Source: Streptomyces phaeolivaceus
GTDB taxonomy: Bacteria; Actinomycetota; Actinomycetes; Streptomycetales; Streptomycetaceae
Direction: 5' to 3'
Assembly: GCF_009184865.1 (NCBI RefSeq)
Contig: NZ_CP045096.1
Coordinates: 4,650,001 to 4,714,000 of the forward strand
Length of the DNA stretch: 64,000 nt
Below, in pieces: positions 9,987 to 17,801 of this stretch; position 1 is the first letter of the stretch, and each line of letters begins with the position of its first letter. Below the pieces are notes generated by a model. The model worked only from the letters and a program-made list of their open reading frames with translations, was not told the origin of the DNA and ran no database searches. The translations under genes were made by a program, and so were the position numbers.

Positions 9987-10604
9987 TCACTCGTTCGTGA
10001 GCGGCAGCGCCCCCTCCAGCCGCCCGAACACCCGCTCGGCCGCGGCCACGGCGTCCCGCTCGACCTCCTCCACCGGCTCCCCCCGCTCGACCCGCCGCCG
10101 GTTCTCCTCCGCGAGCACCCGCCGTACGGCCACGATCTGCGCGGCGGCGACCCGCGCGTCGAGTCCGCCGCCGAGCACCTCGGTGAGCGCGGCCTCGGCC
10201 CGCTCCAGATGGCCGTACGCCCGCGCGACCAGCGACGGCGTCCTGTAGAGCAGCCGGTGGAACGCGAGCACCTGCGGATGGTCGTTCAGCCCGGTCACCG
10301 GGTCCCGCCGGGCCAGCCCCGCCAGAAAGTGCGCCCGTACGGCCCCGACCACCGACTCCCCCTCCGCCCGCCCCGCGACCACCCGCGCCGTCTCGTCCTC
10401 GTGGTCGGCGATGCGGTGGAGGACGAGGTCCTCCTTGGCGGGGAAGTAGCGGAAGAGCGTCGGCTTGGAGATCTCCGCCGCCGCGGCCACCTCGGCCACG
10501 GACACCGCGTCGAACCCCTTCTCCAAGAACAGCCGGATCGCGACCTCCGACACGTTCTCGTACATCCGCCGCTTCTTGCGCTCCCGCAGGCCGGTCTCAC
10601 TCAT
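9987..10604 (-). CDS. TetR-family transcriptional regulator
   Basis: 205 residues from ATG 10604. The N-terminal TetR helix-turn-helix is clear: FLEKGFDAVSVAEVAAAAEISKPTLFRYFPAKEDLV in order, at residues ~23-60. The ligand-binding half is variable (GHLERAEAALTEVLGGGLD). It lies directly upstream of helR on the same strand with a 51-bp gap that contains TAAC-8-GTTA (9955-9970), a possible operator. Its ligand is unknown. The open frame continues upstream into the GC-rich repeat, but ATG 10604 places the HTH at the normal distance. Confidence 0.88.
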   Translation of the reverse strand: MSETGLRERKKRRMYENVSEVAIRLFLEKGFDAVSVAEVAAAAEISKPTLFRYFPAKEDLVLHRIADHEDETARVVAGRAEGESVVGAVRAHFLAGLARRDPVTGLNDHPQVLAFHRLLYRTPSLVARAYGHLERAEAALTEVLGGGLDARVAAAQIVAVRRVLAEENRRRVERGEPVEEVERDAVAAAERVFGRLEGALPLTNE

Positions 10605-10660
10605 GCGATCGAGCGTAAGCGGCCCCGGGTCCGGCGGACGGCCGACGGCCGACGGCCGAC

Positions 10661-10770
10661 AGCGGAGGGCGGAGGGCGAGGGCGGAGGGCGGAGGGCGAG
10701 GGCGGAGGGCGAGGGCGGAGGGCGGAGGGCGAGGGCGGAGGGCGAGGGCGGAGGGCGAGGGCGGAGGGCC
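10661..10770. repeat. Purine-rich GGAGGGC/GAGGGC tandem array
   Basis: About 110 bp of alternating 7-bp GGAGGGC and 6-bp GAGGGC units between the TetR gene and the palindromic element. One strand is almost purely G/A, so it could form unusual structures. It has no coding value in either strand. Confidence 0.85.
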
Positions 10771-10801
10771 GCCGACAGCCGACAGCGGCTACGGCACGGC
10801 C

Positions 10802-10966
10802 AGGGCCTGTCGTTTGGATCACGCCTGGGCCGCGGGGCTTGGCACACACACTCCCCCACTGCCTCAAGGGCGTGGGGGACCCCCAGCCGCACGCACCAAG
10901 CCCCGCTCACCGGCGGTCACCAGGCACCGTGGCCCGAAGCCGGCGTGATCCGAACGACAGGCCCTA
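10802..10966. repeat. Non-coding nested inverted repeat (MITE-like)
   Basis: The outer arms 10802-10825 and 10942-10965 match at 23 of 24 positions (starting AGGGCCTGTCGTT). Inside are perfect arms GCGGGGCTTGG/CCAAGCCCCGC (10832-10842, 10896-10906) and TCCCCCAC/GTGGGGGA (10852-10859, 10872-10879). The 165-bp element has no gene. Its right end supplies the TAG stop codon of the kinase gene. Terminal inverted repeats without a transposase suggest a MITE or palindromic intergenic repeat. No target duplication was seen. Confidence 0.75.
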
Positions 10967-12088
10967 GACGCGTTCCCGTCGCCGTCGCCCTCGCCCTCGC
11001 CGCGCGGCGGCCGGACGCGGCCACAGCCAGCGGGCGAGCGCGGACTCGATCACCGACACACTCGGCACCTTCTCCACGCCCAGGGACCGCGCGCCCCTGC
11101 TCAGCACGTCCCAGACCGTCCAGGTCGCCCGGCGCAGCAGGTCGCGGTCCACCCTCGGCGCCAGGCGCAGGGACTGCGAGGTACGGATGACGTCGGTGAA
11201 CACCGACTGCGCCTTCTTGTAGTCCAGCAGCTTCGGCAGGTCCTCCCGCCAGCCGCGCGAACTCCCCGGCCGGACGCTCTCGGCGAGCGCGCACCAGCGT
11301 TCCGTCATCCGCCGTTCCTGTTCCAGCGGGTAGTGCATCAGGTAGAGGTGGGTGGCGAGGTCGTAGAGGGGGTCGCCGAACATCGCCAGTTCCCAGTCGA
11401 TGGCCCAGAGGCGGCGCTCGTGGTCGACGATGAGGTTCTCGCGGTGGAGGTCGGCGTGGAGGAGGCAGAAGGGGCGCTCCCGCAGGCCTGCCACATGTTT
11501 TCTGAGCTGGTTGAACGAGTCGGGGTCGAGCCTCAGATCCGCGAACAGGGCCCCGTACTCAGGGAGGTTGTCGCCGTAGACGCGCTCCTCGGTGAAGCAG
11601 ATCAGCCGGTCGAGGAATCCCGCGCTGTCGTCGTCCGGCGCGCGGTCCCGTTGATCGCACCTCCGTTTCACCAGAAGGGACCGGGGTCGGACGGCGACCA
11701 GTTGCCGGAAGAGGCCGAGGATCTGCTCGAACTCCCGCTCCGGGACGGCCGTGCCGGACGCGTGCAGCGCCCCGAGCGTGTCGCCCTCGATGAACCGCTG
11801 GAGGACGGTGCCCTCGACCTCGATGAGATCGGGGATGTTGTCGATGCGCCCGCGCAGTTCGGTGAGAAGGCGTTCTTCCGAGTCGAAGCAGCGGCGGTCG
11901 AACCACAGCAGGCTCTCGCGCGGCTCGCGGCACTTCCAGCGTCCGCCCTCGGCGACGCTGGCCTCGGCCGGCAGCCGGAAGACATAGGTCTCGTGGTGGT
12001 AGCCGCTGAGCGGTCCCTCCACCTCGTCCGGGGCGGCGCTCATCTCACCGGCGCGGCGCCGCCCCATGGACTCCGATTCAGCTGGCAT
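10964..12088 (-). CDS. Aminoglycoside-phosphotransferase-like kinase
   Basis: 374 residues with the APH/choline-kinase fold. The catalytic loop is LLHADLHRENLIV (HxDxxxxN) and the metal-binding segment is LWAIDWELAMFGDPLYDLA. Both are intact, so the protein should transfer phosphate from ATP to a hydroxyl of a small molecule. Resistance is not implied by the family alone. The N-terminal start is uncertain (ATG 12088, 12067 or 12043). The C-terminal tail is very Arg-rich and its stop codon is provided by the palindromic element at 10802-10966, so the tail may have been altered by insertion. It is divergent from the HAD gene and adjacent to the GntR/HAD/membrane-peptide locus, so it may act on the same metabolite. 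Confidence 0.8.
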   Translation of the reverse strand: MPAESESMGRRRAGEMSAAPDEVEGPLSGYHHETYVFRLPAEASVAEGGRWKCREPRESLLWFDRRCFDSEERLLTELRGRIDNIPDLIEVEGTVLQRFIEGDTLGALHASGTAVPEREFEQILGLFRQLVAVRPRSLLVKRRCDQRDRAPDDDSAGFLDRLICFTEERVYGDNLPEYGALFADLRLDPDSFNQLRKHVAGLRERPFCLLHADLHRENLIVDHERRLWAIDWELAMFGDPLYDLATHLYLMHYPLEQERRMTERWCALAESVRPGSSRGWREDLPKLLDYKKAQSVFTDVIRTSQSLRLAPRVDRDLLRRATWTVWDVLSRGARSLGVEKVPSVSVIESALARWLWPRPAAARRGRGRRRRERV

Positions 12089-12308: not shown

Positions 12309-13133
12309 ATGACAGCGAAGAACCCCACGCTCGACGAGACGGACGAGACGGACGGTACGCACGGGACGGACGACTCCGGCGAGACGGCGGAGACGACCGA
12401 ACCGCTGCGGCTGCGGCGGCTCCTCGACACGGCCCGAACCGTTCTCCTCGACTTCGACGGCCCCGTCTGCGACCTGTTCGGCGGACGGTCGACACGGCCC
12501 GCCGCCCTGGAGATCAAGGCCATGGCCCGGCGGAAGTGGAATACGCTCGACCCCGCCGTCGAGGCCTGCGACGACTCGCACGGCATCCTGCACCCGCTCA
12601 GGGACATGCTGGACCGAAAGCGGGACGCCGGCCTCGACCCGGCCGTCCTGCGCGAGGCGAACGACATCGTCACGCGCTACGAGTACGAGTGCGCGGGTTC
12701 CGCCGAGCCGGCACCGGGAATCCAGTCGCTGCTGGACTCCCTGCTCGGCCGGGGGAAGCGGCTGGCGATCGTGACGAACAACGCCGAAGGACCCGTACGG
12801 AGGTTCCTCGAACTTCACGGGATGTCCCGGAAGTTCGAGGCGGTCTGCGGCCGTGATCCGGGTGAGCCCCGCCGTATGAAGCCCGACCCGGCGTCGGTCC
12901 ACCGGGCCCTGCGCGCCCTGAGCCCTACGAGCCCGGCCCACGCCGTCATGATCGGCGACCAGCTCACCGACCTCCGGGCGGCCGTGTCCGCCGGGGTCGG
13001 GTTCCTCGGGTACTCCACGGAACCCGAGCGGGCTCGGCTGCTGCGGTGCGCGGGCGCGCACGGCGTGGTCGCCTCGCACGCCCGGCTCGTCACGGCGTGC
13101 GCCCCGCCGCAGGTCAGTCGCTCTCGTCCGTGA
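12309..13133 (+). CDS. HAD-superfamily hydrolase (first copy)
   Basis: 274 residues. Motif I is LLDFDGPVCDLFGG (nucleophile Asp and general acid Asp), motif II is AIVTNNAEG, motif III is the lysine in MKPDPASVHRAL, and motif IV is VMIGDQLTDLRAA. All four HAD motifs are present, so this is probably a phosphatase for a small phosphorylated metabolite. The first ~30 residues are a Thr/Asp/Glu-rich low-complexity stretch. It resembles the second HAD protein at 14377-15219 (both have D-x-DGP-[VI]-C-x-LF). It converges on the first GntR gene with a 20-bp overlap of 3' ends. Confidence 0.85.
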   Translation: MTAKNPTLDETDETDGTHGTDDSGETAETTEPLRLRRLLDTARTVLLDFDGPVCDLFGGRSTRPAALEIKAMARRKWNTLDPAVEACDDSHGILHPLRDMLDRKRDAGLDPAVLREANDIVTRYEYECAGSAEPAPGIQSLLDSLLGRGKRLAIVTNNAEGPVRRFLELHGMSRKFEAVCGRDPGEPRRMKPDPASVHRALRALSPTSPAHAVMIGDQLTDLRAAVSAGVGFLGYSTEPERARLLRCAGAHGVVASHARLVTACAPPQVSRSRP

Positions 13134-13971
13134 GCAGGTTCCAGACCGAGTCGAACCAGGCCTGCGCGGCGTCCACGAAGTCGGGTCCCTGGGACGGTGG
13201 TTCGGCGTCCTTGACGTGGTGGGTCAGAGTGGCGCCCAGGCCGAGTACGTCGCGGGCCTCGATCTCCTCGTCGCCGACCGAGATCATGCGCTCGACCACC
13301 GTGTAGAAGCCGTGCAGCGCCTCGGTCCGGTTGAGCAGATACACCTTGAAGGTCGGGGTGAGCGGCGCGTACCGGGTCTCGACGTCGACCTGCGGGACGA
13401 ACCCGCCCCGCTGGAGATCTTCCAGCGCCTCGCGCAGCGACGCCTCGTTCACCCTGGTGATCCCGCGAAGGCGTTCCTGCGGCCGGGTGTCGTTCCGGCG
13501 CCCTCTGACCGTCGGGTACGGCAGTGGTGTCGACTCCTGGGGCAGCAGCATGCGCAGCGCGATGCGCTCGGGCGCGATCGCCCCTTCCCTGATCCGTTCC
13601 GCCTGGAGCCAGATGTGCGTGCTCAGGGACTCCGACGTCAACGTGTGGATGTCCAGGAGCACTTCGGGCCGGGCGAAGGCGTCGTCGAAGAACGAGCGCA
13701 GGGTCACCCTGCCCGCCGCCGGGTGCCGTGTCCGCCGGACTCCCAGCACCCGGGTCCCGCTCCCCTGCCGGGACTCGACCCAGCCCTCCTCGCGCAACCT
13801 GGTCAGGACCTTCTGGACGGTGTCACGGGAGACGCCGAGCCTGTCGGCCAGTTTCCGTTGCGCGGGAAGGGAGGCGCCCACCGGGTAGGTGCCGTCCTCC
13901 ATCCCGGTCCGCAGCGCTTCCAACGCCAGCTCGAACTTGCTGCCGCCCTCACCGGTCCGCGTATCGCCCAC
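13114..13971 (-). CDS. GntR-family regulator with unrecognised C-terminal domain (copy 1)
   Basis: 285 residues from GTG 13971. The N-terminal winged helix is typical GntR (GTYPVGASLPAQRKLADRLG, SRDTVQKVLTRLREEGWVE). The C-terminal half is neither FCD nor UTRA as far as I can see. It contains FKVYLLNRTEALHGFYTVVE and ends with a WFDSVWNLL motif that recurs in the two other GntR proteins nearby. An upstream TTG (14031) would also keep the frame open, but it falls inside the palindrome 14028-14040, a likely operator, so I prefer the internal GTG. It is divergent from a small membrane protein gene. Confidence 0.82.
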   Translation of the reverse strand: MGDTRTGEGGSKFELALEALRTGMEDGTYPVGASLPAQRKLADRLGVSRDTVQKVLTRLREEGWVESRQGSGTRVLGVRRTRHPAAGRVTLRSFFDDAFARPEVLLDIHTLTSESLSTHIWLQAERIREGAIAPERIALRMLLPQESTPLPYPTVRGRRNDTRPQERLRGITRVNEASLREALEDLQRGGFVPQVDVETRYAPLTPTFKVYLLNRTEALHGFYTVVERMISVGDEEIEARDVLGLGATLTHHVKDAEPPSQGPDFVDAAQAWFDSVWNLLTDESD

Positions 13972-14027
13972 CTCTCGACCGTACCGCTCCCCGTCGACAG
14001 GCAAACCGGTTCCGGTCAACAAGCGTT

Positions 14028-14104
14028 CCAATTGGACCGGTTGTTAAGGGATCAGCCCAATCGGGAATACCAATCACAGGTCAATAGCCGACCAATTGGA
14101 CTGG
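14028..14104. promoter_or_regulatory. Paired CCAATTGG operators between GntR copy 1 and membrane peptide 1
   Basis: Two near-identical 13-mers, CCAATTGGACCGG (14028-14040) and CCAATTGGACTGG (14092-14104), lie 64 bp apart in the divergent promoter region. The CCAATTGG core is a perfect palindrome. Position and symmetry fit binding by the adjacent GntR protein to both promoters. Confidence 0.6.
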
Positions 14105-14138
14105 CCGACGGGGCAGTCGGCGGAACGGGGTGGAGAAC

Positions 14139-14321
14139 ATGGTCGTATGGGAAGTGGTGGTGGCGGCGTTCCGGTTCGCCGCGGCCCACCTGGTCGGACA
14201 GACCCTCGGCCCCATCGGGCTCTTACTCCTGGTCGTCGTGGGCACGGCCCTGCGGATCGGCCAGGTGCGGCTGGCCTGGTGGACGGCCCTCCTCTTCCTC
14301 CTCCTGATGATGCAGGCCTGA
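14139..14321 (+). CDS. Small two-segment membrane protein (copy 1)
   Basis: A 60-residue product from ATG 14139 (GTG 14130 is possible). It has two hydrophobic stretches, TLGPIGLLLLVVVGTALRIG and VRLAWWTALLFLLLMM, and an amphipathic N-terminus. It has the same position relative to a GntR gene as the 63-residue protein at 16275-16466, although sequence similarity is weak. Function is unknown. Size and layout would suit a small membrane regulator, a transporter accessory or a toxin-like peptide. The upstream palindromes suggest control by the divergent GntR protein. Confidence 0.65.
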   Translation: MVVWEVVVAAFRFAAAHLVGQTLGPIGLLLLVVVGTALRIGQVRLAWWTALLFLLLMMQA

Positions 14322-14376
14322 TCCGGGCCTGCATCGGGCCTGATCCGGGCCTGCTTCGGGCCTGCCGATCGTTCAG

Positions 14377-15219
14377 TCAGGCCTGGTCGGGGAGTTGGGT
14401 CCGGAGCACGTCCAGTACGGGCTTCAGGGAGTTCACGGTGTGCGGGAGTTGGACGCCCGCGTCCAGGAGGGCCTTGAGTTTGTGTTCGTTACGCGCGTAG
14501 CCGAGGAAGGGGACGCCGGCCTCGCGGGCCGCCTCGAAGTCGGTGGGGGCGTCGCCGAGCATCAGGGCGCGCGCGGAGTCGGCGCCCATCGCGTTGAGGG
14601 CCTGGCGCAGGGTGTGGGGGTGCGGCTTCATCCGGTCGAGGTCGCGGGTGCGGCCGTAGATGTAGGGGAAGCAGTCGGTGAGGCCGCGGGTCTCGATGTA
14701 ACGGGCCGCCGCGAGCGCGGAGTTGTTGGTGGTGATGGCGAACCTGGCCCGCCGTGACCAGGTCCGGATCAGCGGATCGGCCCAACTCGTGGGGTACGCC
14801 TTAGGCGCGGCGGTCAGCTCCTGCTGGGTGAGCCACTCCTCCACGTCGGTGATCAGGTCGCTGCTCGGATGGCGCCGGCCCAGCCCGAGGAGGACGACCT
14901 GGGGGTCGGCCGTACTCCGTTCCCGCTCCGTCAGCAGGCCGCCCAGTCCGCGTCTTTCGATCAACGCCACGAGATCGCGGGCCACTTGGTGCGCGGGATG
15001 CCCGGAGAACAGTCGGCAGATCGGCCCGTCCAGGTCCCAGAGCACGAAGCGGACGGGAGTGATCAGTTCTCGCAGTTCTCGAAGGGACTCTGTCTCTGCT
15101 GTCACCGGTTCAGTCTGCGCCGTGTTCCGCGCCTCGTTCTGCGCCGTGTTCCGCGCCTCGTTCTGCGCCGTGTTCCGCGCCTCGTTCTGCGCCGTGTTCC
15201 GCGCCGTATCAGAAGTCAC
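14377..15219 (-). CDS. HAD-superfamily hydrolase (second copy) with octapeptide-repeat N-terminus
   Basis: 280 residues. Motif I is FVLWDLDGPICRLFSG, motif II is FAITTNNSALA, motif III is the lysine in RMKPHPHTLRQAL, and motif IV is LMLGDAPTDFEAA. The family would remove phosphate from a small substrate. The GTG start overlaps the TAG stop of GntR copy 2 (TAGTG), so the two are translationally coupled. The N-terminal ~35 residues are a repeat of the octapeptide ARNTAQNE, encoded by a 24-bp tandem repeat, and lie outside the catalytic domain. It is a paralogue in type of the HAD gene at 12309. Confidence 0.85.
   Translation of the reverse strand: MTSDTARNTAQNEARNTAQNEARNTAQNEARNTAQTEPVTAETESLRELRELITPVRFVLWDLDGPICRLFSGHPAHQVARDLVALIERRGLGGLLTERERSTADPQVVLLGLGRRHPSSDLITDVEEWLTQQELTAAPKAYPTSWADPLIRTWSRRARFAITTNNSALAAARYIETRGLTDCFPYIYGRTRDLDRMKPHPHTLRQALNAMGADSARALMLGDAPTDFEAAREAGVPFLGYARNEHKLKALLDAGVQLPHTVNSLKPVLDVLRTQLPDQA
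15113..15204. repeat. 24-bp tandem repeat inside the HAD gene
   Basis: Three exact 24-bp units (15133-15156, 15157-15180, 15181-15204) and a partial fourth at 15113-15132. They keep the reading frame and encode the octapeptide ARNTAQNE repeatedly. Copy number is likely to vary between strains. Confidence 0.92.
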
Positions 15220-16103
15220 TAGGAGAGTGTCAGGTCCGTCGTGATGGTTTCCCAGAGGGCGTTGAACCATTGCTGGGACTGATCCACGAAGGCGGCGTCA
15301 CGAAGACCGGTCTCCTTCTCGAAGGAGAAGAGGAGGGACTGGGTGCCGAAGGCGTCGTACATCTCCAGCGGGCCGTTCTCCATCTGCTCCTCGCGCTTCA
15401 TCAGCATGTAGTACGCGATCAGCGCCTCCTGGCCGTTGAGGAGGTAGAGCTTGACGGGCGGGGTGAACGGCAGCGCCCTGAAGGTCACCCGGACGTCGAG
15501 CTGATGGGAGGTGCGCAGGGCCAGCAGATTGTGGCGCAGGACGCGGATCTGGGCGTTGCGCTGGTCGAGCCAGCGCTTGTGGACCGGGTCCTCCTCGTCG
15601 TCCTCGCCGCGCGCCGCCACCGGGACCGGGAACGCCAGGTTGATCTTCCGGGAGGGGAGCAGGATCCGGACGTCGATCGACTCCGGACGGACCGTTCCCT
15701 CATGGATACGGCGGACCGGTTCGCCGAGGGCCATCATCAGGGTCTCGGCGGTGAGGCAGGCCGCGTCCACCCGGACGTGCGGCTGGGAGAAGGCCTCGGC
15801 GAGGCGGGGGCCGAGGCCCACCATCGTCGGCTGCGGCTCATGGCCCGCGGTGTGCCCGGCCTCGGCGACCCGGGGCGGACTGCCCTTGCTCACGTTGCTC
15901 AGCAGCCCGTCCTCCTGGAGCGCGCGCAGCGCCTGCCGGACCGTGCCGCGCTCCACGCCGAACTCCTCCGCGAGTTCGGCCTGGGTGGGCAGGCGCTCGC
16001 CGGGGCGGAGGTCGCCGCCGCGGATGCGGTCCCGCAGGGTCGCGGCGATCTCCTGGGACGAGAGCTTTCTGCTGCCGTTCACTGCAACGTTCTCCTGGGT
16101 CAC
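15219..16103 (-). CDS. GntR-family regulator with unrecognised C-terminal domain (copy 2)
   Basis: 294 residues from GTG 16103. The winged helix is GGDLRPGERLPTQAELAEEF with VERGTVRQALRALQEDGLL. The C-terminal region has FRALPFTPPVKLYLLNG and ends SQQWFNALWETI. It is strongly similar to copy 3 (16516-17439) through both domains, so the two arose by duplication. The GTG start follows directly after a conserved 57-bp promoter box shared with copy 3, which argues against the upstream TTG. It is coupled to the HAD gene downstream and divergent from a small membrane protein. It probably regulates both and itself. Confidence 0.85.
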   Translation of the reverse strand: MTQENVAVNGSRKLSSQEIAATLRDRIRGGDLRPGERLPTQAELAEEFGVERGTVRQALRALQEDGLLSNVSKGSPPRVAEAGHTAGHEPQPTMVGLGPRLAEAFSQPHVRVDAACLTAETLMMALGEPVRRIHEGTVRPESIDVRILLPSRKINLAFPVPVAARGEDDEEDPVHKRWLDQRNAQIRVLRHNLLALRTSHQLDVRVTFRALPFTPPVKLYLLNGQEALIAYYMLMKREEQMENGPLEMYDAFGTQSLLFSFEKETGLRDAAFVDQSQQWFNALWETITTDLTLS

Positions 16104-16217
16104 GACCAAACGCTACAACTCTCACCCATCTTTGGGGAGTTCACGGAAAGGTGGTTATGAACATAGACCAAGAGGGAACCATTTAAACGAAGTTGGCTGC
16201 CAACTTGGCGAAGTTGG
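16104..16217. promoter_or_regulatory. Conserved promoter box and palindromic operator, GntR copy 2 / membrane peptide 2
   Basis: Positions 16104-16160 match 17440-17496 upstream of copy 3 at 46 of 57 bases, with the strongest block ending AGGTGGTTATGA. Next comes the perfect palindrome AAGTTGGCTGCCAACTT (16190-16206) and a half site AAGTTGG (16211-16217). The layout fits a GntR operator controlling both divergent genes. Confidence 0.65.
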
Positions 16218-16274
16218 CGAAAGTTCCACCCCGCACCGGCCCCACCACCCAGCCCCCTCGGAGGAGGTACCACC

Positions 16275-16466
16275 ATGCCCGCTGTCCTCGCCCTCGCCCC
16301 CGCCCTCGCCGTCGTCGCCCTCCAGCGATTCGTCGAGTGGCGCTACGGCACCATGGGAATCGTCGGCCTGCTGCTCCTCACCGTCGGGCTGAAGGCGAAC
16401 AACCACACGTGCAGCTCGATCGGCGCGGTCATCCTCGCATTGATGTTCGCCGGCCCGGCGATGTGA
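16275..16466 (+). CDS. Small two-segment membrane protein (copy 2)
   Basis: 63 residues from ATG 16275 after a strong GGAGGAGG ribosome site. The hydrophobic segments are MPAVLALAPALAVVALQRFV and GIVGLLLLTVGLKANN, with a third short hydrophobic stretch AVILALMFAGPAM at the C-terminus. It lies between two same-type GntR genes: it is divergent from copy 2 and its 3' end faces the 3' end of copy 3. I do not recognise the family. The strong ribosome site and adjacent operator suggest a real, regulated gene. Confidence 0.72.
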   Translation: MPAVLALAPALAVVALQRFVEWRYGTMGIVGLLLLTVGLKANNHTCSSIGAVILALMFAGPAM

Positions 16467-16515
16467 CGGCCGACAGCCGATACGACGGCCGACAGCCGGA
16501 CGACGACCGTCAGCT

Positions 16516-17439
16516 TCAGCTGGTGAGCAGCAGGTCCGAACTGATCGTCTCCCAGAGCGCGTTGAACCACAGCCCGGACTGCTCGACGAACGTCGTGTCC
16601 CGTGGCGCGGCCACCGCGCTCCGCTCGAACGCGAACAGCGTGGACTGGGTGCCCTCGGCGTCGTACATCTCCAGCTGCTCACTGTCCACCTCGGCCGCCC
16701 TCCGCTGGACCGTGTAGTACGCGAACAGCGCCTCCCGGCCGTTGAGCAGATAGAGCTTCACCGGCGGGGTGAAGGGCAGCGCCCGGAAGGAGACATGGAC
16801 GTCCACGCCGTGCGTGGAACGCAACGCCAGCAGGTTGTGCTTCAGCACCTGCCCCTGGGCGTTGCGCTGGGCGAGCCAGCGGCGCTGCACCCGGCCGTCG
16901 ACCGAGGCGTCGTCCAGGGTGTCGACCGGGGTCGGGAAGGCGAGCGGGATGTCACGGCTGGGCAGCATCACCCGGACATCGACCCTGGCCGGTTTTATAC
17001 GCCCCGCGTGAATCTCGCGCAACGGCTCACCCACGGCGAGCGTGAGGGACACGGAGGTCAGACAGAGGGCGTCGATCCTCACCTGCGGGGCCGCGAAGGC
17101 GGCGGATATACGCGGGGCCAGCTCCACCATCGTGGGCCGCGGCGCCGCTCCCGGGCCGCCCACGGCCGACGCTCCCTGGCGTGCGGCGACCGTCGCGGGG
17201 CTGCCCTTGGAAACGTTGGTGAGCAGGTGCTCCGACTGCAGGATGCGCAAGGCCTGCCGGACGGCCCCGCGCTCCACGCCGAACTCGTCGGCCAGCTTCG
17301 CCTGGGTGGGCATGCGCTGCCCCGGTCGCAGCTCGCCGGACCTGATCCGGCCGCGCAACACGTCGGCCACCTCGTGATGTGACCTCTGGGGCCGCTGTGA
17401 CGACTTCCGCCCATCGACGGCCGTGCGTTCCCGCTCCAC
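16516..17439 (-). CDS. GntR-family regulator with unrecognised C-terminal domain (copy 3)
   Basis: 307 residues from GTG 17439. The winged helix is SGELRPGQRMPTQAKLADEF with VERGAVRQALRILQSEHLL. The C-terminal part has FRALPFTPPVKLYLLNGREA and ends SGLWFNALWETISSD, matching copy 2. Unlike copy 2 no HAD gene follows; a membrane-peptide gene converges instead. The likely history is duplication of a GntR-HAD unit followed by loss of one HAD gene. The start is fixed by the conserved upstream box shared with copy 2, which sits directly before the GTG in both. Confidence 0.85.
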   Translation of the reverse strand: MERERTAVDGRKSSQRPQRSHHEVADVLRGRIRSGELRPGQRMPTQAKLADEFGVERGAVRQALRILQSEHLLTNVSKGSPATVAARQGASAVGGPGAAPRPTMVELAPRISAAFAAPQVRIDALCLTSVSLTLAVGEPLREIHAGRIKPARVDVRVMLPSRDIPLAFPTPVDTLDDASVDGRVQRRWLAQRNAQGQVLKHNLLALRSTHGVDVHVSFRALPFTPPVKLYLLNGREALFAYYTVQRRAAEVDSEQLEMYDAEGTQSTLFAFERSAVAAPRDTTFVEQSGLWFNALWETISSDLLLTS

Positions 17440-17541
17440 GAACAAACACTACAACTTCTCGCCATCTTTGGGCAGTTCGTGGGAAGGTGGTTATGAGACG
17501 ACTCCAAGCGGAGATAAGTAAGGTGGAGTTGGTCACCAACT
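17440..17541. promoter_or_regulatory. Conserved promoter box and palindromic operator, GntR copy 3
   Basis: 17440-17496 is the 57-bp box shared with copy 2. A perfect palindrome AGTTGGTCACCAACT lies at 17527-17541, related in core (AGTTGG-N-CCAACT) to the one at 16190-16206. No downstream gene is visible on the plus strand within the next 250 bp, so this operator probably serves autoregulation. Confidence 0.6.
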
Positions 17542-17801
17542 TTTGCAACATGGTCAAACTTTCAGCTGGTTGGTGACCCTGGCACATGCCACCCTGACCG
17601 ACCGTTCGTCCTCCCCTCCGGAGGGGAGCCGGGAGTCCGACCGGTCCGCACAGCCACAACTGAATGGTTCAGCCACAACTGAATGCGCAGCCACAACCAC
17701 AACTGAACAGCAACGACTACAGCTACAGCTACAGCTACAGCTACAGCTACAGCTACGGATACCCGCACCCACCAGGACAGGAAAGGTCCCCAGGAGAAGT
17801 C
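17542..17801. repeat. Intergenic repeats: CCACAACTGAA units and an AGCTAC hexamer array
   Basis: No convincing gene. Three related CCACAACTGAA units lie at about 17653-17708, followed by GACTAC plus six exact AGCTAC hexamers (17715-17756). In one plus-strand frame these read as alternating Tyr/Ser after an ATG at 17664, but that frame runs on antisense through the next gene and is not called. Confidence 0.75.

Follow-up and report, generated by a model that had tools for sequence, protein, structure and literature searches.

What brings three GntR-type regulators, two phosphatases of the HAD superfamily, an APH-fold small-molecule kinase and two very small membrane proteins together on a Streptomyces chromosome, and what might such an assembly sense? 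The question is raised by a stretch of 64,000 nucleotides from Streptomyces phaeolivaceus (assembly GCF_009184865.1, contig NZ_CP045096.1, positions 4,650,001 to 4,714,000), hereafter the window, in which an original prediction, made from the letters alone, had described a triplicated regulator locus. All coordinates below are window positions. The locus is a three-copy form of the Streptomyces devA/devB/devC/devE developmental locus, in which the third copy resembles devF/devG. Orthology, conservation, predicted fold, operators and promoter geometry were obtained here by computation.

A three-copy dev locus

From left to right, the locus consists of the kinase gene, a HAD gene, a GntR gene, an open reading frame (ORF) of 63 codons, a second HAD gene, a second GntR gene, another 63-codon ORF and the last GntR gene, with an Eis-like acetyltransferase gene adjoining on the right, followed by two genes that we take to be dtd and ygfZ. 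The three regulator ORFs (13114-14031, 15219-16109 and 16516-17445) all lie on the minus strand. The middle one encodes the DevA orthologue (15219..16103), the rightmost one the DevE orthologue (16516..17445), whose C-terminal domain is 59% identical to that of DevA, and the leftmost one a DevF/DevG-like protein (13114..14031), here called the third regulator. The DevB-type HAD phosphatase (14377..15270, minus strand; Pfam HAD_2, E = 1.1e-14) lies directly 3' of devA, and the N-terminal part of its ORF contains a tandem repeat of ARNTAQNE units (15120-15204) right after the end of devA. The other, DevB-like phosphatase gene (12309..13133, plus strand; Pfam Hydrolase, E = 2.7e-18) is divergent from the kinase gene and convergent with that of the third regulator. 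The four catalytic motifs of the superfamily are present in both HAD genes, and the kinase (10964..12088, minus strand, with an inferred start at the MPAESESMG codon; Pfam APH, E = 2.5e-13) keeps its catalytic motifs HxDxxxxN and DWE (HADLHREN, DWE, GDPLYDL). A hexamer repeat of CAGCTA units (17720-17755) separates devE from the Eis-like gene. The closest named relatives of the window proteins include those of Streptomyces brasiliscabiei, S. akebiae and S. scabiei.

The window is tied to the dev locus of S. coelicolor by three agreements. The C-terminal end encoded by a published oligonucleotide for the deletion of S. coelicolor devA is, with small differences, that of the window DevA; the devA-devC intergenic DNA aligns with its S. 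coelicolor counterpart (score 54; shuffled maximum, 28); and the 17 nucleotides ahead of GTG 16103 match, letter for letter, the leaderless start documented for devA of S. coelicolor, CGAAGTTGTAGCGTTTGGTCGTG (PMC3160421), so that GTG 16103 is most likely the start of the window DevA. The devE intergenic region aligns as well (48; shuffled maximum, 34), and that of the third regulator scores 18, the level of chance. DevE probably starts at GTG 17439, also of the leaderless type, and the third regulator probably at GTG 13971, because TTG 14031 falls within its predicted operator.

In S. coelicolor, devA is cotranscribed with the phosphatase gene devB, devC is a small divergent gene and devE is a duplicate of devA (Clark and Hoskisson 2011, PMC3187754). 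According to the same account, devA mutants form short, mis-septate aerial hyphae, devE mutants form long, unseptate ones, devB mutants are conditionally bald, and DevA represses devAB, that is, regulates itself negatively. Like the S. coelicolor locus (SCO4188-SCO4190 and neighbors), that of the window has the leaderless devA start, the devA C-terminal end, the devA-devC intergenic sequence, a HAD gene downstream of devA and a devE paralogue upstream. Unlike it, the window has a third regulator accompanied by a DevC, a HAD phosphatase and a kinase of its own, and has lost the DevC of devE, of which a promoter-like sequence and an operator remain. The third regulator is 33% identical to DevA, much as the extra copies DevF and DevG of S. 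sviceus are 31 and 33% identical to it (PMC3187754); the accessible text of that paper, from which the words membrane, operator and kinase are absent, does not describe membrane-protein DevC partners, operators or a kinase for these copies.

The original prediction thus named the parts correctly: three GntR proteins with a common, unrecognized C-terminal half, two of them next to a divergent membrane protein of about 60 residues, two linked HAD genes with one APH-like kinase, and palindromes in each regulator promoter. It went astray in calling the purpose of the system unknown, as this is the known dev locus, whose role is partly understood, and the duplication unusual, since tandem duplication of devA-like genes had already been published (PMC3187754).

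The regulators share a C-terminal domain with a predicted phospholipase D-like fold

All three regulators begin with a GntR winged helix (Pfam GntR; E = 7e-19, 9e-19 and 5e-16; 6.7e-19 for the third regulator). The rest of each protein is a DevA-type C-terminal domain, alignable across the three copies and containing the VKLYLLN and WFNALWETI motifs that had first drawn attention to it. Within its own genome the domain was found three times, always at the dev locus. A Pfam scan of the three domains to an E-value of 10 gave PadR (E = 0.1) on one and nothing on the other two; with no FCD, UTRA or aminotransferase domain among the results, the FadR/FCD, HutC/UTRA and MocR classes were rejected. 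The GntR-class NCBIfam matches, among the matches listed, lie inside the helix-turn-helix (HTH) and below the cut-off. A search of solved structures by sequence returned a single match (E = 0.84).

Of the 50 VIA-align rows for a model of full-length DevA, 49 fell on the HTH and 1, a phospholipase D, over the C-terminal domain, which was therefore modeled by itself. The resulting AlphaFold2 model (predicted local distance difference test, 88.6) matches the phospholipase D (PLD) superfamily, including the sensor domain of TrmB, and on this predicted model the domain belongs to the PLD-like fold; a viral fold library gave no match to it at E < 0.001. The catalytic motif HxKx4D is incomplete: among 295 distinct rows, the histidine is present in 2, the lysine in 284 and the aspartate in none, and the complete motif occurs neither in the window copies nor among their relatives. 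Lys220 and Asn225 are among the conserved residues of the DevA domain. Because no relative keeps the full motif, the modeled domain is probably a ligand sensor. TrmB is not known to have PLD catalysis either. Membership of the TrmB family by sequence was rejected, as the C-terminal domains have no Pfam TrmB match and PF01978 is matched only by the HTH of two regulator copies; the window proteins also differ from the archaeal TrmB sugar regulators in that their HTH is of the GntR type. No report of a GntR protein with a PLD-like effector domain turned up in a literature search. A defense system was considered too, and rejected because PADLOC gives weak, HTH-level matches on the regulators and none on the other five proteins.

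The same domain also occurs in membrane-tethered form. A family of 43 proteins, the named ones from Streptomyces and labeled "hypothetical protein," joins an N-terminal hydrophobic hairpin to a DevA-type C-terminal domain (hhalign probability 99.6% over 191 columns; reversed control, 1.1%), and such a protein is encoded at 10 of the 79 dev loci described below. A second type, with a hairpin ending near AQFVKPVGDALEG, is found at dev loci as well. These tethered proteins lack an HTH, and many lie at dev loci of other Streptomyces species (loci L131, 9296-10483, and L113, 9291-10271, both on the minus strand, and L170-L185); searches of the window genome found neither type. The tether cannot be equated with a DevC (profile probability 0.6%), and homology is limited to the C-terminal domain. 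The existence of tethered forms suggests that the ligand, or a partner, can be met at the membrane.

A phosphatase, and often a kinase, stays with the regulator

The original prediction had taken regulator, phosphatase, membrane peptide and kinase for one functional unit. Two sets of loci were tabulated: 79 loci that are the best matches to DevA and hence favor orthologues, and 60 further loci hand-picked from other genomes, mostly genomes with a single copy. In the first set, a HAD gene is present in 76 loci, an APH gene in 73 and devC in 73, with three devC copies in 29. In the second set, all 60 loci have the HAD gene; devC and the kinase occur together in 27, devC only in 3, the kinase only in none, and 30 have neither. 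Other genera supply 27 of these 60 loci, all with HAD and 15 with the kinase. A phosphatase, often accompanied by a kinase, thus stays with the regulator in other genera. Unrelated neighbors together with unconserved peptides, which would have spoken against a unit, did not occur, yet half of the second set goes without peptide and kinase.

This half is a subfamily of its own. Its 30 loci (L242, L250-L254, L258-L270, L272, L275-L277, L281-L282, L287, L289-L291, L299) encode GntR regulators with the DevA-type domain next to a HAD gene, without devC, kinase or eis, dtd or ygfZ neighbors, whereas one of these three neighbors is found at 28 of the 30 devC-bearing loci of the second set. The simplest history is that of an ancestral devC/devA-devB-kinase unit at this chromosomal place, later duplicated in Streptomyces, beside a separate subfamily of regulator-HAD pairs elsewhere. 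By genome search, the C-terminal domain was found in 135 of 199 genomes of the genus, in 119 of 200 genomes and 11 of 17 genera of the family, and in 12 of 396 genomes of a phylum sample; absences in the last two samples are weak, because only part of the first-look candidates was scored (15 each in the family and 8 each in the phylum).

Two regulators have DevC-type peptides of their own

The two 63-codon ORFs encode small hydrophobic proteins, M1 (14130..14321, plus strand, GTG start, with ATG 14139 possible) next to the third regulator and M2 (16275..16466, plus strand, preceded by the ribosome site GGAGGAGG) next to DevA; their membrane location is judged from hydropathy only. Two of the window regulators, then, each have their own divergent DevC-type peptide, and DevE has lost its own: the DevC profile has no match behind devE in the window. 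M1 and M2 are the only matches in the 64 kb and, apart from a next match at E = 0.065, in the whole genome. The seeds of both DevC profiles consisted of small hydrophobic ORFs adjoining regulators and included the two window proteins, so that the E-values of M1 and M2 arise by construction, as does part of the adjacency of DevC and regulator inside the sampled loci; the independent test is the absence of a third match in the genome. A large database yielded 100 proteins, among which, in the matches listed, the named ones are from Streptomyces and most metagenome rows are nameless.

Across the 79 loci, DevC adjoins 72 of 86 devA-class, 38 of 74 devE-class and 38 of 54 third-class regulators, where a regulator was counted if it shared 45% identity or more with the window copy and had sufficient DNA on its flanks (those too close to a locus end were excluded from the devC and operator counts). 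Among more divergent regulators of the three classes, the counts are 0 of 3, 0 of 1 and 6 of 16, and four further DevC genes (L074, L094, L106 and L129) were missed where the regulator ORF was called too long. Peptides keep to their regulator class: for 155 sequences, the nearest neighbor of a DevC belongs to the same class in 153 of 154 tests. Alignment with relatives supports M1, and in each of the three DevC classes the second codon position varies least.

According to the 2011 account, which calls DevC a small hypothetical protein, devE retains devC in just two species (PMC3187754); with DevC next to at least 38 of 74 devE-class regulators, this limit no longer holds. SCO4187, whose locus number places it beside devE, is a putative membrane protein of 6.3 kDa and has been listed as decreased in a bldA mutant (PMC2000904).

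Predicted promoters and operators

Each regulator has promoter-like DNA facing its present or former devC. In front of M2 lies a SigB-like promoter, GGTTAT-N15-GGGAAC (16153..16179, plus strand), within the stretch that aligns with the promoter of SCO4189, which, in a two-plasmid test in E. coli, is listed as recognized by SigF, SigH and SigN (PMC8346170); on this resemblance, the devC promoter on the devA side would be of the SigF/H/N type. A SigB-like promoter of M1 is predicted at 14043..14067 (plus strand), and on the devE side GGTTAT-N15-GGAGATAA is retained at 17489..17517 (plus strand). Class-specific patterns of this kind occur towards devC in 55 of 73 devA regions, in 36 of the 38 devE regions that keep devC and in 41 of 45 third-class regions, compared with 0.03%, 0 and 0.7% of shuffles that, like those for the intergenic alignments above and for the dyad and the general SigB pattern below, preserve base composition only. 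On the devE side of the window (17489-17541), promoter-like sequence and operator are kept with no devC ORF behind them; this may be a promoter whose gene has gone, or it may give rise to a short RNA.

Palindromes lie close to these promoters and are candidate binding sites of the regulators. The predicted operators of DevA, AGTTGGCTGCCAACT (16191..16205), and at devE, AGTTGGTCACCAACT (17527..17541), have the form AGTTGGN3CCAACT, and the third regulator has the predicted operator TCCAATTGGA (14027..14036) and a second site, CCAATTGG (14092..14099), downstream of the M1 promoter. In the 79 loci (1.09 Mb), AGTTGGN3CCAACT occurs 134 times near regulator starts and 9 times elsewhere, upstream of 65 of 86 devA-class and 67 of 74 devE-class regulators. 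CCAATTGG is less specific (57 near starts and 25 elsewhere; upstream of 42 of 54 third-class regulators), and TCCAATTGGA more so (30 and 2). The 10.2-Mb genome has exactly two copies of AGTTGGN3CCAACT, at the devA and devE promoters, and one of TCCAATTGGA, at the third regulator; the reversed control of the former occurs once and the control of the latter never. With two exact copies against one in the control, the weight of the operator rests on position rather than on count. From the -10 pattern of devC to the palindrome there are 12 nucleotides in all 50 of the 73 devA regions that have both and 9 in all 35 of the 38 devE regions that have both, spacings that become equal after correction for pattern length; among third-class regions, 40 of the 41 with the pattern have CCAATTGG at a distance of 20 to 25 nucleotides, mostly 22. 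In the second sample, at many devC-bearing loci, the longest inverted repeat outside the AGTTGG type was no better than in shuffles.

The devA promoter region itself (16104..16150, minus strand) contains, besides the TAGCGT -10 element that belongs to the leaderless start, a dyad, CAACT-N17-AGTT (16116-16141), whose half-sites are those of the operator. Dyads of this type (CAACT-N14-18-AGTT) lie over the devA-side promoter in 70 of 73 devA and 38 of 38 devE regions, and in 0.3% of shuffles.

A possible mechanism and its alternatives

What, then, might the locus do? We give about an even chance to the reading that the regulators are metabolite-responsive autorepressors, with a ligand set by the kinase/phosphatase pair, which gate a membrane peptide driven by sporulation sigma factors. 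Each regulator would be a winged-helix repressor fused to a degenerate PLD-like domain that binds a small ligand, plausibly, and most likely, a phosphorylated compound; the kinase would make or remove this ligand and the DevB-type phosphatase would do the opposite. The version put forward in the original prediction, with a phosphorylated metabolite produced by the kinase and taken away by the HAD enzymes, would be one plausible form of this. DevA and DevE would bind AGTTGGN3CCAACT just downstream of the SigB-family (SigF/H/N-type) devC promoter and related half-sites at their own leaderless promoter, and the third regulator would use CCAATTGG. From these positions, at the devC promoter and at their own, the regulators could keep their own gene, devB and DevC repressed for as long as the ligand does not change; the activating input would come from the sporulation sigma factors, and DevC would be the membrane-side output.

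Several results weigh against this reading. The Foldseek E-value for the PLD-like fold is modest (9e-4), with FAM83 as the best match. The class promoter patterns were derived from the same alignments and regions on which they were counted; with a looser, general SigB pattern, matches are found in 65 of 73 devA and 23 of 45 third-class regions, and in only 2 of 38 of the devE class (shuffled, 3%), which departs from it in having just its own GGTTAT-N15-GGAGATAA form. The median DevC dN/dS (Nei-Gojobori, sampled pairs) is only moderately below 1, at 0.54, 0.55 and 0.76 in the devA, devE and third classes. The co-occurrence of devC and kinase was discarded as independent evidence: in the tree, the loci with neither all fall on the same side of one branch, which reduces the association to a single event. 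Finally, the operator with two mismatches is as frequent in the genome as its control (270 versus 276); no wider regulon is visible, and no further targets are claimed.

Alternatively, DevC could itself be the switch: by binding to the PLD-like domain of the regulator with which it is paired, the peptide would keep this regulator at the membrane, and the repressor would be released or captured by membrane state and not by a soluble metabolite. This we consider unlikely, although it would account for the class pairing of peptides and regulators, for the membrane-tethered form of the domain in relatives, and for the distances of devC and third-type regulators, which remain correlated once the DevA background is taken into account (partial r: HTH, 0.46; C-terminal domain, 0.43; 44 devC-regulator units; 0 of 2,000 permutations). 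Linked genes co-diverge anyway, however, and devC tracks the HTH more than the C-terminal domain (0.34 versus 0.21, each corrected for the other); moreover, the tether is not detectably related to DevC, and 30 of the 60 further loci have a DevA-type regulator without a devC match.

We hold it to be equally improbable that DevC is a sporulation scaffold like SmeA, a small membrane sporulation protein known for targeting an SpoIIIE/FtsK-like protein, and that it brings another protein, either the kinase or one of cell division, to the septa or to the membrane, with the regulators only timing it. DevC is likewise a small membrane protein linked to sporulation, its promoter is of the sporulation-sigma type, and in the 60 loci the kinase is never found without devC. 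That last association is the one evolutionary event described above, however, and no sequence relation to SmeA was detected in the window genome, which has no third DevC-like match that could be SmeA.

A more elaborate, membrane-coupled switch is a tentative idea that we also think improbable: the degenerate PLD-like domains would read a phosphorylated or lipid-linked compound at the membrane, the dedicated peptides, produced only while sporulation sigma factors are active, would capture or report to their own repressor, and the duplicates, with separate operators, would serve as separate checkpoints, for aerial growth and for septation. The membrane-tethered proteins of some relatives would be cases in which this domain has become permanently fixed there. 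That DevC is a toxic hydrophobic peptide restrained by the regulator, as in toxin-antitoxin or stress modules, is very unlikely: the protein is small and hydrophobic, and the operator is tightly placed downstream of a stress-type sigma promoter, but neither DevC has a match in the PADLOC defense library, the devC-bearing loci are syntenic (28 of 30), in the window the regulator DevE persists without its devC, and devC accompanies only 38 of 74 devE-class genes.

Other features of the window

A proline-rich, low-complexity repeat of RPPPSPSAL units (10600-10790) lies ahead of a gene that presumably encodes a TetR regulator. Rfam and tRNA scans of the window gave no matches.

Significance for dev signaling

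The locus itself is already known, and its molecular picture is partly new. Compared with the literature found, what is added is a predicted PLD-like fold, a map of predicted operators, the matching of DevC to each regulator class, the persistence of the kinase and the existence of a tethered variant. DevA and DevE gate aerial growth and septation, and the 2011 paper leaves their signal open, as far as its accessible text goes (PMC3187754). With a putative PLD-like sensor, predicted operators, a devC promoter of the sporulation-sigma type and a kinase/phosphatase pair in hand, dev signaling becomes concretely testable.

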